A program made the translations under genes and the position numbers. 39,869 nucleotides of DNA from Coxiella sp. RIFCSPHIGHO2_12_FULL_42_15. Its GTDB lineage: Bacteria; Pseudomonadota; Gammaproteobacteria; Coxiellales; Coxiellaceae. The DNA lies in contig MGOZ01000039.1 of the NCBI GenBank assembly GCA_001797285.1, forward strand, positions 1-39,869, read 5' to 3'. A model generated the notes under the pieces. The model was given only the letters and a program-made list of their open reading frames with translations, was not told the DNA's origin and ran no database searches. Shown here in pieces: positions 10,978 through 27,552 of this stretch (its first letter is position 1; each line of letters begins with the position of its first letter).

Positions 10978-11158
10978 CAGGAATTCCCCATCTTTCGATG
11001 GGGAATTCCTTCCCTTTCATTGACGCGGGCTGCAGGGGACCTGCATCCTCGCGATCAAGGGGGAGCGCGCAAAGCTCCCTCTGGATAATCCCCCACTGTT
11101 TCAATCTTTTGTTTTCTCAAACAATAAGTTGCTAGATAATGAACTCGGGGAATTGCTG
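10978..11158 (+). mobile_element. 181-bp MITE-like element, copy A
   Basis: The element starts CAGGAATTCC and ends GGAATTGCTG, an imperfect 10-bp terminal inverted repeat. It is bounded by a perfect 9-bp direct repeat, CGCGCCGTT (10969-10977 and 11159-11167), the mark of a target duplication. Inside are a perfect hairpin (GGAATTCCCCATC / GATGGGGAATTCC) and a second stem near 11070. There is no open frame of note, so it is non-autonomous. A near-identical copy of the same length lies inverted at 26790-26970. It sits between the divergent starts of valS and lptF. CAG ends with a duplication near 9 bp might suit an ISAs1-like transposase, but that is uncertain. Confidence 0.88.
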
Positions 11159-19121: not shown

Positions 19122-19166
19122 CAGGAATTCCCCATCTTCCGATGGGAAATTCCTTCCCCTTCATTG
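19122..19166 (+). repeat. Truncated relative of the 181-bp element
   Basis: The first 45 bases follow copies A and B (CAGGAATTCCCCATC, hairpin partner GATGGGAAATTCC, then TTCCCCTTCATTG) with a few changes, after which similarity ends. It is an old, decayed or recombined copy directly behind the M48 protease gene. Confidence 0.6.
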
Positions 19167-19780: not shown

Positions 19781-19799
19781 GCTTCGCTATAAATCCCCA

Positions 19800-19811
19800 C
19801 TGAATAGTTAC
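19800..19811 (-). mobile_element. Solitary IS66-like end
   Basis: On the minus strand GTAACTATTCAG equals the first 12 bases of the terminal repeat of the mini-element at 26720-27082. It overlaps the TAA stop of the coiled-coil gene. No matching second end was found nearby. Confidence 0.5.
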
Positions 19812-23553: not shown

Positions 23554-24693
23554 TCAACTGGACCACAACTTTCGATGGGTGTGTATTGACATGATCATGC
23601 CAAACGACGCCATGGTGGTTAGTATGGAACTGCCACCGTAGCTGATTAATGGTAGCGGTACACCAACAACGGGCAAAATACCAATCACCATACCAATGTT
23701 AATAAAAGCTGAAATAAAAAAAGTAAGACAGAGACTACCGGCCAGCAAACGATTAAAATTGCTTTGTGCTTGTGTGCTGATGTAGAGACACCGCCCGAGT
23801 ACGGCGAGAAAAACTAAAATAATAGCGAAACAGCCAATAAATCCAAATTCTTCACTGGCGACTGCATAAATGAAATCCGTCGCATGGGCGGGTAAAAATT
23901 GCAGATGCGATTGCGTGCCGTGCAAAAATCCGCGCCCCATAAATCCTCCGGAACCGATTGCAATTTTAGATTGGATAATATGGTAACCCGTGCCTAACGG
24001 ATCACGTTCGGGATTTAACAGGGTAAGTACTCGATTACGCTGATATTGATGCATGAAATGCCATAAAATGGGTGTGCAACCCGCTCCCACCACCACAATA
24101 CTTAACAATAAACGCCAACTCAAGCCCGCCAATAATAAAACAAAAAATCCTGAAAAACCAATGAGAATGGCGGTACCCAGATCCGGTTGTTTTGCCGTGA
24201 GTAAAACCGGTATTGCCAATAGACAAGCAGCCACTGTTAAATGAAAAGTGCGTGGTGGCAGTGGTTTATTGCACAGATAATAAGCCAGCATGATTGGCAT
24301 AGCGAGTTTCATAAATTCAGAAGGCTGAAAATGAAAAATCCCTAAATTAAGCCAGCGTCGTGCGCCTTGACTTGTATAACCAAAAAGCAAAACAAAAATC
24401 AATAAGACCAGCGTGATCGTAAAAAACCACGGCGCCCAGCGTTTGTAATAAATAGGAGGGATAGAAGCAAAAATGAAAAGCAATACAAACCCACCGAGCA
24501 TGCGTGCCGCTTGTTTTTCCACCATATTAAAATTAGAATTACTGGCACTGTAAAGAATGAGTAACCCAACACCGCACAACAGCAGCAATAACATCATGAG
24601 CACAGGGTCAATATGCAAGCGATACCAACGCAAATTTTTAATGGTATTACTGAAATTCGATGATTTTTTGTAAGAGAATTTAACTGTTTTCAT
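23554..24693 (-). CDS. rodA: Rod-shape peptidoglycan polymerase RodA
   Basis: A 379-residue SEDS-family glycosyltransferase with about ten transmembrane helices. It polymerises lipid II in the elongasome together with PBP2. Family signatures include L-L-L-C-G-V-G-L-L-I-L-Y-S-A, G-A-R-R-W-L-N-L-G-I-F-H-F-Q-P-S-E, KQPDLGTA, and the closing G-V-P-L-P-L-I-S-Y-G-G-S-S. The ATG lies 14 bases inside the end of mrdA, giving tight coupling. Confidence 0.97.
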   Translation of the reverse strand: MKTVKFSYKKSSNFSNTIKNLRWYRLHIDPVLMMLLLLLCGVGLLILYSASNSNFNMVEKQAARMLGGFVLLFIFASIPPIYYKRWAPWFFTITLVLLIFVLLFGYTSQGARRWLNLGIFHFQPSEFMKLAMPIMLAYYLCNKPLPPRTFHLTVAACLLAIPVLLTAKQPDLGTAILIGFSGFFVLLLAGLSWRLLLSIVVVGAGCTPILWHFMHQYQRNRVLTLLNPERDPLGTGYHIIQSKIAIGSGGFMGRGFLHGTQSHLQFLPAHATDFIYAVASEEFGFIGCFAIILVFLAVLGRCLYISTQAQSNFNRLLAGSLCLTFFISAFINIGMVIGILPVVGVPLPLISYGGSSILTTMASFGMIMSIHTHRKLWSS

Positions 24694-26515
24694 GGCGATG
24701 CTTCAAATAAAAATGAATGAGTTTGCCGGCAATTTGATTTCCCAACGTGCTGTGTTCGACAATCACGGAGAGTGCAATTTGCGGATGATCTACGGGCGCA
24801 AAGGCAATAAATAAATGATGATTGCGTAATTCTTTGGGAATATTAAGACTGGAATTATCTTCGTTGCGACTGTGGCCGTAAGTTTGTGCCGTTCCCGTTT
24901 TTCCAGCGATGGCAACATCATGGGGCCCGATAAGACGTGCTGTTCCTTCTTTTCCATCGATCACCTGTTGCATGGCATTAATGACGACGTCCCACGCTTC
25001 TGGATGAACGATGGGAACAGGTGCTTCTTCAGTGGGTTGTAATACGACGACATTGCCTGCTTCATCCATGGTTTTGAACAATAAGTGTGGCTGCATTTGC
25101 AGACCACGGTTTGCCATGGTGGTTGCAGCAAAAGCCAATTGCAATGGAGTGACGAGCAAAAAGCCTTGACCGATGCCTGTTTCCACCGTGTCACCGGTAT
25201 ACCATGCACTATGATGAGTGCGTCGTTTCCATTCAGGTGAAGGCACTAATCCCGATTCTTCACCGGGAAGATCAATTTGTGTTTTTTTACCAAAACCAAA
25301 TTCACTTAAGATGGTATCGAGTTCGTTAATACCCAGGCGAGCAGCAAGCTGATAAAAGAAACTATCGCAAGAAACTTCTATCGCTCGAGTGACATTGACC
25401 CAGCCGTGCCCGCGATGTACCCAATCGCGAAAAACATGGGTGGTATTGGGTAAGCGAAACCAACCGGGATCATAGATTCGGGCTGTGGGTGTGATGATGC
25501 CGCTGTCTAAACTACCCAGTGCAATAAAAGGTTTAACGGTAGATGCTGCCGGATATTGACCGTGGATCGCACGGTTAAATAAGGGATGATGGGGAGAATT
25601 TAATAAATCCTGGTATTCTTTTTGTGTGATGCCGCGCGAAAAAATATTTGCATCAAACGTGGGGTGACTCACTAAGGCGAGTACTTCACCTGTATCGGGT
25701 TTGATAACCACAATCGAGCCATTTTCGTTACCGAGTAATTCATGTGCCAAGGATTGCAAACGGCTATCGATGGTGAGATAGAGATTTTTTCCTGCCGTGG
25801 GCGGAGTTTTTTTGAGTGAGCGAACAATATGTCCTGTGGCATTGATTTCTGCCTCTTCGGAGCCTATGTGGCCATGCAAAATATTTTCATAGTATTTTTC
25901 AATACCGTTTTTACCAATATCATCAGAAGCGTCATAATTATCGTGATTAATGCTGCGTAATTCATCTTGATTGATGCGTCCAACATAACCCACAATTTCG
26001 CTGCTCGTATCACCGAGTGGATAAAAACGCATGGAGCGTGTTTCAATCACGACCCCGGAAAAAAAAGGCTGATTCACATAAAAGTTTGCAATTTCCTCTT
26101 CGCTTAATTTCATTTTTAGTGGAATGGGATCAAATTGGCGATATTGATTGCGGTAACGATTAAATTGTTTGATGTCATCATCAGAGATAGGGACAATTTT
26201 TTTTAGTTTTTCAATGATGGCAGGAATATTTTTAATTTTTTCTGGAATCAAAGCGAGTGAATAACTAGGAACATTTTTAGCGAGCACGACTCCATTTCTA
26301 TCGTAAATTAAACCGCGAGAGGGTTTAAGTGGGATAATGCTTAATAAATTTTGTCGCGATAACGTTGAAAAAAATTGGTGTTGGATAATCTGCAAATCAA
26401 TGAGGCGCGATAATAAAATGAGGGTAAAGATGCCAACAACGACCAGAGCAGTCATCGTCCGGCGTTTGAAGAGATAGGCTTCGTGAATGTGTTTGTTTAG
26501 AGTCGTTTTTCCCAT
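24680..26515 (-). CDS. mrdA: Penicillin-binding protein 2
   Basis: A 611-residue transpeptidase of the elongasome. It has an N-terminal membrane anchor (about 22-42), the PBP dimerisation domain (S-R-G-L-I-Y-D-R-N-G), and a transpeptidase domain with STVK (near residue 323), SCDSFFYQ and KTGTAQ (near 537). ATG 26515 (MGKTTLNKHIHEAYLFKRRT) is chosen because everything upstream is translated repeat. Its likely ribosome-binding site, CCAGG, is part of a BIME-like repeat that ends at the gene. It is separated from rlmH by about 570 bases of inserted elements although the two are adjacent in related genomes. Confidence 0.96.
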   Translation of the reverse strand: MGKTTLNKHIHEAYLFKRRTMTALVVVGIFTLILLSRLIDLQIIQHQFFSTLSRQNLLSIIPLKPSRGLIYDRNGVVLAKNVPSYSLALIPEKIKNIPAIIEKLKKIVPISDDDIKQFNRYRNQYRQFDPIPLKMKLSEEEIANFYVNQPFFSGVVIETRSMRFYPLGDTSSEIVGYVGRINQDELRSINHDNYDASDDIGKNGIEKYYENILHGHIGSEEAEINATGHIVRSLKKTPPTAGKNLYLTIDSRLQSLAHELLGNENGSIVVIKPDTGEVLALVSHPTFDANIFSRGITQKEYQDLLNSPHHPLFNRAIHGQYPAASTVKPFIALGSLDSGIITPTARIYDPGWFRLPNTTHVFRDWVHRGHGWVNVTRAIEVSCDSFFYQLAARLGINELDTILSEFGFGKKTQIDLPGEESGLVPSPEWKRRTHHSAWYTGDTVETGIGQGFLLVTPLQLAFAATTMANRGLQMQPHLLFKTMDEAGNVVVLQPTEEAPVPIVHPEAWDVVINAMQQVIDGKEGTARLIGPHDVAIAGKTGTAQTYGHSRNEDNSSLNIPKELRNHHLFIAFAPVDHPQIALSVIVEHSTLGNQIAGKLIHFYLKHRHENS

Positions 26516-26520
26516 ATTTT

Positions 26521-26661
26521 TTAGCCTGGATATTCCATGTTGCTTTTTGAGGATGACGGCCATATGAAGTGGCCTGCCACCAACGGGATGAGCTAACAAA
26601 AGACCTTCCCGTTGGCGGCACACCGACCATCGCTGTTCGATGTAAAATATCCGGGTTAGCA
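26521..26661. repeat. BIME-like pair of GTTGGCGGCA repeats
   Basis: Two units in opposite orientation. 26521-26590 on the minus strand ends CATGGAATATCCAGGCTAA. 26592-26661 on the plus strand runs from ACAAAAGACCTTCCCGTTGG to AAATATCCGGGTTAGC. The GTTGGCGGC cores can pair with each other as a hairpin. Related sequences are at 19212, 4854 and 38391. Confidence 0.65.
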
Positions 26662-26711
26662 TGTTGTTTGATGGAAGGCGCGACCATTATACAGCAATTT
26701 CCCATCCTTTT

Positions 26712-26719
26712 GTCTACCG
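26712..26719 (+). repeat. 8-bp target duplication, left
   Basis: GTCTACCG directly precedes the GTAACTATTCAGCC end and recurs at 27083-27090 right after the other end. The right copy contains the rlmH stop codon. Confidence 0.85.
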
Positions 26720-27082
26720 GTAACTATTCAGCCCCTTTTTAAAAGGGCCACAAATTCGCAAGAATGAGACAAGGTTGAAGGCAAAATTGCAGCAATTCCC
26801 CAAGTTCATTATGTGGCAACTTATTGTTTTAGAAAACAAAAGATTGAAACAGTGGGGGATTATCAAGGGGGAGCTTTGCGCGCTCCCCCTTGATCGCGAG
26901 GATGCAGGTCCCCTGCAGCCCGCGTCAATGAAAGGGAAGGAATTCCCCATCGGGAGATGGGGAATTCCTGGCAAAATTGACGAAAAAGCGCAGCATACGC
27001 GTTGGTATGTGAGCATTTTGAGGAAATTTTGCCTTCAAGATTGGCCATTATTGCGGATTCCCATTTTAGGCTGAATAGTTAC
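26720..27082. mobile_element. IS66-like mini-element with an insertion inside it
   Basis: Perfect 14-bp inverted ends GTAACTATTCAGCC (26720-26733) and GGCTGAATAGTTAC (27069-27082) are flanked by the 8-bp duplication GTCTACCG. GTAA ends with an 8-bp duplication are the known hallmark of the IS66 family. The element has no transposase. Removing the inner 181-bp insertion and one 9-bp duplication leaves 173 bp, with an internal inverted repeat TTGAAGGCAAAATT / ATTTTGCCTTCAA. It sits immediately behind the rlmH stop codon. Confidence 0.87.
26790..26970 (-). mobile_element. 181-bp MITE-like element, copy B (nested)
   Basis: Nearly identical to copy A at 10978-11158 in reverse orientation and of equal length. 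It is flanked by the perfect 9-bp repeat GCAAAATTG (26781-26789 and 26971-26979), which belongs to the surrounding IS66-like mini-element. This shows it jumped into that element later. Confidence 0.9.
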
Positions 27083-27084
27083 GT

Positions 27085-27552
27085 CTACCGATGATAAGGG
27101 TGATGACTGAGGATACTCCAGGCACGATAAATTTGTTCTGCAATGACAATTCGCACTACGGGATGGGGGAGTGTGAGTGCCGACAAGGACCATGATTCGT
27201 TTGCTTTTTGGATAACCGTTGGGCTGATGCCTTCTGGTCCCCCAATCAGGAGACTCACGTCTTGGCTTAGTTGATGGAATTGCCATAATTTTTGAGCAAA
27301 TTGTTCCGTTGAGAGTGATTTTCCGAGACGATCCAGCGTAATGATCACGGAATGGGAAGGAACAGTGGCAAGCAATTGCTCGCTTTCAATGGCCAGGAGT
27401 TGTTTTATGTTCGCGCTTTTGCTGCGTTTCTGTGCAGAAATTTCAATGAGCTGCAGTGAAAATTCTTTTGGTAGGCGTTTTGCGTATTCGGCATAGCCTT
27501 CTGAAACCCACGGGGGCATTTTCGTGCCGATAGCCAGTAAGTTAATTTTCAT
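27085..27552 (-). CDS. rlmH: 23S rRNA pseudouridine-1915 N3-methyltransferase
   Basis: A 155-residue SPOUT-family enzyme that methylates pseudouridine 1915 of 23S rRNA on the 70S ribosome. The trefoil-knot SAM site is visible (LLIGGPEGI, then LTLPHPVVRIVIAEQIYRAW) and the conserved C-terminal HPYHR is intact. Its start overlaps the end of rsfS by 11 bases. The TAG stop lies within the 8-bp duplication made by the downstream mini-element, so the insertion left the protein whole. Confidence 0.96.
   Translation of the reverse strand: MKINLLAIGTKMPPWVSEGYAEYAKRLPKEFSLQLIEISAQKRSKSANIKQLLAIESEQLLATVPSHSVIITLDRLGKSLSTEQFAQKLWQFHQLSQDVSLLIGGPEGISPTVIQKANESWSLSALTLPHPVVRIVIAEQIYRAWSILSHHPYHR

Follow-up and report, generated by a model that had tools for sequence, protein, structure and literature searches.

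Nested mini-transposons between rlmH and mrdA in a Coxiella genome, and a hairpin core that recurs within other kinds of ends

A stretch of 39,869 bp from contig MGOZ01000039.1 of Coxiella sp. RIFCSPHIGHO2_12_FULL_42_15 (hereafter the window) raises the question of how two small elements came to lie one inside the other between rlmH and mrdA, and of what the outer of the two carries. Both can be delimited exactly to the base, as the preliminary description of this DNA had proposed. The outer element (26720..27082, plus strand, 363 bp as present) has ends GTAACTATTCAGCC, the left one (26720..26733, plus strand) being complementary to the right one (27069..27082, minus strand) at 14/14 positions, and is bordered by two copies of the 8-bp target duplication GTCTACCG (26712..26719 and 27083..27090). 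It is split by the inner element (26790..26970, plus strand, 181 bp), whose ends CAGCAATTCCCCA and TGGGGAATTCCTG are complementary at 12/13 positions, with CAG[C/G]AATTCCCCA (also written CAG[C/G]AATTCCCC) as the consensus of inner-element ends, and which is itself bordered by two copies of the 9-bp duplication GCAAAATTG (26781..26789 and 26971..26979). Removal of the inner insert and of one 9-bp repeat leaves an outer element of 173 bp, and an uninterrupted copy of just this size (C18:26258-26430) shares 99.4% identity with the insert-free outer element. This bears out the proposed order of events and supplies the 173-bp filled version that had been predicted, but at another genomic site. The nest is thus the product of two insertions, the outer element having come first. 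That it might instead be an artefact of assembly is barely credible: some of the 53 contigs of the assembly do stop within copies of these repeats, but each of the two duplications is exact and where it should be, and either element is found alone, with a duplication of its own, at other loci. No Pfam domain was found at E <= 0.01 in the three open reading frames that overlap the nest.

Each element taken alone is an ordinary mini-transposon, and the usual explanation of such elements is that an insertion sequence has shrunk, so that a single parent supplied both the ends and the interior. For the outer element, the parent suggested earlier was an IS66-like one. IS66 elements have inverted-repeat ends that begin with GTAA and make an 8-bp target duplication, and the outer family resembles them in its GTAA ends, inverted over 14/14 positions, and in its duplication: the source genome (G000; 1.64 Mb, 53 contigs, 85% complete) holds six other uninterrupted 173-bp copies, five at 97.7-99.4% identity and one at 80%, and the 8-bp duplication is perfect in five of these six (6/7 counting the window), copy C52 having none. 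A genome search for the outer ends returned 32 sites with at most two mismatches, against 13 for the reversed pattern. The companion search for an IS66 transposase went the other way, PF03050 being absent from G000 in its 85% complete assembly; this domain is present in 16 of 37 genomes. Among 12 IS66 loci fetched from relatives, the end sequence borders an IS66 gene in three (L105, L110 and L111), the other nine being without it. At L105 and L110 tnpC stops at a TGA inside the end repeat, which in each case has 12/14 matches to GTAACTATTCAGCC; L105 has tnpB (PF05717) and a tnpC with four IS66 domains, and no left end was recognised upstream of its genes. At L111, two IS66 fragments and a DUF559 gene lie between GTAACTATTMAGC ends with a 7/8 duplication. 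None of the 12 loci showed a whole element in which an intact tnpC lies between two ends. What stands of the IS66 affiliation is therefore the ends, the 8-bp duplication and the relatives' IS66 genes that end inside a like repeat; compared with IS66 (PF03050) and the mini-transposons derived from it, including the tnpC that ends in such an end at two relatives' loci, the outer element differs in having no transposase, in an interior made of a hairpin core, and in an assembly without a partner IS66.

Some further traces of similar elements were seen in the same genome. Contigs C12 and C40 both end in GTAATTATTCAGCC, flanked by matching 8-bp TAAAATAG, and such identical flanks fit a longer, unassembled element with ends of this kind. 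A second mini-transposon family has GTAACTATTCAG-like ends, 8-bp duplications and a different interior at three loci (C9:26911-27079, or L042; C26:14262-14430, or L043; and L055), where the duplications are, by eye, aattgtcc, tgactgac and aaacaata. Another IS66-type family is represented in the window by a lone GTAACTATTCAGTGGGG end (19798-19811).

The inner element has at least 24 full-length copies in G000, including that of the window, a lower bound since 40 of 84 candidates were scored. Twenty-two of these are of about 181 bp (94-100% identity), one is of 209 bp and one of 212 bp, and partial copies exist besides. At the ends as listed, the 9-bp duplication is perfect in 16/24 copies, matches at 8/9 positions in 2/24 and is missing in 6/24, one of these six becoming perfect when its boundary is shifted by one base. 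The preliminary description took the perfect duplications of the nest as a sign of recent events, which is unproven, as duplications of 8 and 9 bp are a weak clock and full-size copies are 94-99% (inner) and 80-99% (outer) identical. Shorter inner-type forms of 34, 65 and 76 bp, at one locus each, have like ends and a perfect 9-bp duplication, and were for these reasons dropped as separate families; many inner-type ends are lone or decayed, without a partner. The inner end CAGSAATTCCCC occurs 152 times with at most one mismatch, against 9 times for the reversed pattern. Exact CAGSAATTCCCCA was counted in 36 genomes of the order: it is frequent in G000 (80 sites) and G041 (10 sites), both with zero control matches, and each of the other genomes has one site at most.

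The searches for a parent of the inner element did not find one. ISAs1 or another DDE_Tnp_1 group was set aside, with 0 matches to PF13808 and PF01609 in the 85% complete assembly, and the 20-mer of the inner left end had a single match in the species genome collection, within a coding region of an Acidobacteriota contig, which was taken as chance. REP elements moved by RAYT (Y1) transposases make no target duplication, and the 8- and 9-bp duplications of the elements rule against them; a group II intron or integron attC remnant was dropped because the end motifs of neither seem to fit. Elsewhere in the window, a second inner-family copy (10978-11158, duplication CGCGCCGTT) lies between valS and lptF, starting 13 bp from the start of the valS reading frame, and a right-end fragment of the family is present at 19122-19166. 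Three further copies (L094 2447-2513, L095 2581-2647 and L096 1033-1099) consist of no more than the rightmost 67 bp of the inner element, with a common start at base 115 and, by eye, no duplication.

What the outer element carries is a hairpin of about 110 nt, whose tip is nearly invariant and whose arms still pair while their letters change; neither this core nor a third repeat beside the nest figured in the preliminary description. In the window the core extends over 26756..27057 (plus strand), its left arm split by the inner element, with the apex GAAAAAGCGCAGCATAC...GTATGTGAGCATTTT at 26982..27019 (plus strand); the model of the core, which is 112 nt long in uninterrupted copies, matches at 26948-27057. 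When the DNA of the nest was searched against 27 relatives, four matched. In G002, G006 and G020 it is chiefly the right half of the outer core that is matched, with one match in G020 extending to the right end, and reading of the matched loci revealed the hairpin core as common to these three genomes; the match in G012 lies in a hairpin of the inner element. A further genome, G041, was reached via the inner-type ends, and its CAGCAATTCCCC elements contain the same core.

To assess the pairing of the arms, 25 copies from five genomes were aligned. Of the cells, 95.1% are paired, and both partners have changed in 27 of the 38 pairs. Values this high were reached in 0 of 500 shuffles, and pairing fell to 35-49% when the partners were slid by one to three columns. 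Without G041 (16 copies) the figures are much the same, with 95.6% paired and 26 of 38 pairs changed on both sides. A hold-out model built on these 16 copies, with G041, Halomonas and Pseudomonas left out, recovered seven of the ten loci of G041, with E between 8.3e-21 and 1.1e-17; the remaining three have one element end only. Twelve other core loci, six from plasmids and six from genomes of the class, all found earlier with related queries, gave eight matches at 2.3e-9 or better, one each at 2e-6, 3.4e-4 and 0.16, and one locus unmatched. The same model had no match in four loci of the inner element or in two loci of another mini-element family. A model of 19 copies, run on the window, found the outer element only (E 3.6e-19, the next best being 0.6), all model E-values being rough owing to a short calibration.

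These results bear on the simplest alternative, namely that two unrelated ordinary mini-transposons were nested by chance and that the likeness of the cores is a convergence of A+T-rich palindromes. Bacterial mini-transposons are commonly palindromic, and the whole nest does fold strongly on the strand tested (z -10.8). Even so, convergence is very improbable, since it would leave without explanation that slid pairings fail, and that a model ignorant of G041 retrieves its copies with E-values down to 8e-21 and zero loci of the inner element or of the second family. In addition, with one copy taken from each of 39 genomes or records, identity per column is mostly 90-100% in the apex, its covarying stem and loop excepted, as against mostly 30-65% for arm columns other than an A-run and a T-run at 77-90%; this is a description rather than an independent test, because the copies were found with models and patterns that contain the apex. 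Searches of Rfam gave nothing at E <= 1 for window positions 26500-27300, and for eight core loci only microRNA and snoRNA models below the gathering score. Judged by sequence and pairing, the core is homologous among its copies.

If the core is one and the same, its ends are not. The flanks of 111 core copies, drawn from 39 genomes or records, were scanned for inverted ends with a duplication, with swapped flanks as control. A score of 17 or more was reached by 27/111 copies against 0/333 flank-swapped controls, and one of 16 or more by 41/111 against 3/333; 45/111 copies have no end pair with a duplication. Some of the best rows lie inside the true ends (e.g., L236, L237, L319 and L282), so that rows have to be judged singly. 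A separate reading of the copies covered 66 of them, one row each, and the fetched loci L329-L336 were left out. In the clear cases the duplications around the core are 8, 9, 3 or 4 bp long. Ends GTAACTATTCAGCC with 8 bp occur at 5/6 G000 loci scanned and at L243 in G020, and ends CAGCAATTCCCC with 9 bp in G041, where four of seven scanned are perfect and two more match 8/9. Ends of the AGACCTCTTG type, in elements of 143 bp, go with 3 bp in G002 (all 16 elements with both ends recognised, of 20 core copies), as do ends GAACCTGTTCACGATC in L283, L301 and L279, which are three of the six copies in G203 and G056. Four-base duplications are CTAG with ends CAGGYTGTTGAAAAA (L291 and L316) and TTAA with ends GGAGCCTCTGATTAA in Halomonas (L261) and ends CAAGCCGTTGAAAAA/CAGGCTGTTGAAGAA in P. 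veronii (L262). As a separate observation, the hairpin core is also present in the IS66-remnant element with the DUF559 gene (L111 1266-2938), where it separates the two tnpC fragments.

The core carriers of G041 have the ends and the 9-bp duplication of the window's inner family. Outer (GTAACTATTCAGCC) and inner-type ends, the two types nested in the window, have thus each bound the core elsewhere. This distribution suggests that the core has been exchanged between different sets of ends. In principle, a single ancestral mini-transposon could have given the same picture without any exchange, if its ends had drifted until they were no longer alike. Some end sets are indeed close (GTAACTATTCAGC, GTAACTACTTGCCC and GTATCTATTCATC, with 8-bp duplications), and a single transposase family could account for 8 and 9 bp if these were the only lengths, but duplications of 3 and 4 bp, next to ends that are not at all alike, are the mark of other families, and G290 alone has the core within two kinds of ends, clear in L316 and weak in L293 (score 14, reached by 5/333 controls). 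Drift from one ancestor is, on these grounds, quite improbable. An intermediate with one core between two sets of ends, both duplications present, was not seen. Taking the above together, we consider it likely that the 173-bp outer element, split here by the 181-bp element, was moved by an IS66-family transposase, and that the core of the outer element, found elsewhere in other ends, was swapped between ends.

The way such a core could travel is suggested by the ends and duplications, together with what is known of insertion sequences. Each element would be a passenger without a transposase, moved in trans by the enzyme that reads its ends, which for the outer element is likely an IS66-family transposase; the inner-type ends enclose this core in a different genome. 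Core and ends might enter new combinations when one mini-element inserts into another and the old ends are then lost, and the nested insertion between rlmH and mrdA is a plausible first step of such a change; that the core is handed over we infer from its sitting in many kinds of ends.

More speculative is the reason for which the tip is kept. A host factor may recognise the folded strand, be it single-stranded DNA or RNA, because pairing persists while the letters change and the mismatched tip hardly varies; of all the steps proposed, this one has the least support. The arms by themselves would not demand selection, as template switching between them can keep them paired in a neutral way. The orientation of neighbouring genes, assigned by a crude reading-frame test around 111 copies, gave sense to antisense counts of 36:31 upstream and 34:47 downstream, the rest being unassigned, and the lack of a clear bias argues mildly against a role within host transcripts. 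The same lack of bias would suit an apex that acts as a double-stranded site for a dimeric host protein, the hairpin being incidental, as would its two halves being near-mirror images. We think this unlikely, since the innermost half-sites co-vary (GCATAC/GTATGT, GTGTAC/GTACAT, GTTTAC/GTAAAT), which is unexpected for a fixed duplex site, and the long arms also remain paired. The fuller reading of the hairpin, as a passenger module spread over the class, selected for its folded tip and carried by at least five or six kinds of ends with nested insertions handing it over, is held tentatively, and we put it at somewhat under an even chance.

The spread of the core is wide. The model of 19 copies (from G000, G002, G006, G020, G041, Halomonas and P. 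veronii) matches at E <= 1e-4 in 86/274 genomes and 73/222 genera sampled evenly over the class, a count that includes G000 and G020, both used in building the model, and for which up to 13 candidates were scored per genome. The class sampled is probably the Gammaproteobacteria, because the named core carriers Halomonas, Pseudomonas and Fukatsuia belong there. The uninterrupted outer copy L013 had no match in the phage collection, and in viral contigs the TTTAC form of the apex was seen in four stretches and the YRTAC form in none; with the apex so rare, viruses do not look like the main carriers. The P. veronii copy of the core had no match in 20,395 records of E. coli.

Several known families of small elements resemble those described here in one respect or another. 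QMITE1 and QMITE2 of Coxiella burnetii are likewise small and palindromic with end repeats, and QMITE2 shares direct repeats of 7-9 bp; compared by description, they differ in having one end-repeat model per family, an exchange of ends going unmentioned in the accessible text of the reports (PMC5896051; PMC10969869). MITEPsy1 of Pseudomonas syringae, gene-less, 100 nt long and caught moving in vivo, has a 4-bp CTAG/YTAA duplication like some core carriers, and its ends as given in the available part of that report, GGAAGGTCTGAAAAAGCC, are not among the clear end types around the core (PMC3189936). The ERIC, RU-2, RU-3, CIR and Correia elements share long paired stem-loops, that of CIR with a conserved GANTC motif at the loop; again by description, they differ in that a core within unrelated ends is not mentioned in the accessible text (PMC2229807). 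No description of one core within unrelated ends was found in such text as the open-licence literature offers. A core that keeps its structure and its tip across duplications of 3, 4, 8 and 9 bp fits poorly with the view of mini-transposons as shrunken insertion sequences. If the core is exchanged, the interior would be worth keeping whatever transposase moves it, and a function of mini-transposon interiors becomes testable via one conserved motif, present in 86/274 sampled genomes.

As to the locus itself, the preliminary description held that the outer element had landed exactly where it did no harm. The rlmH TAG (27085-27087, minus strand) does fall inside copy 2 of the outer duplication, and rlmH (27085..27552, minus strand) is intact, with 155 aa and the C-terminus HPYHR found in most relatives. 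Harmlessness in a wider sense is unproven, as the start of mrdA (penicillin-binding protein 2; 24680..26515, minus strand) lies 569 bp past the end of rlmH (or 422 bp, counting from the earliest ATG in the reading frame), as against 2-50 bp to the first in-frame ATG of PBP2 in relatives. The latter range comes from the 10 of 19 loci that could be placed, the other nine consisting of one without an ATG before the motif and eight without a PBP2 motif in the stretch examined. RlmH was found in 24 of 27 relatives, the closest being 59% identical, and the empty site CGGTAGAC could not be derived at base level from the 19 loci read. In shuffled sequences terminator-like sites average 1.0 (sd 1.1) and promoter-like sites 0.8, against 2 and 0 here. 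The start of mrdA was set at ATG 26515 because most of the codons upstream in its reading frame fall in the third multicopy repeat (26522-26658, arms TAGCCTGGATATT and AATATCCGGGTTA), which separates the nest from the mrdA start and contributes likely spurious codons to that frame. Of the 569-bp gap, 371 bp are taken up by the nest (one duplication counted) and about 140 bp by this repeat. For the repeat, 127 sources from the same genome were checked and 20 had matches, several of these overlapping one another and the window and the repeat's own locus being among them.
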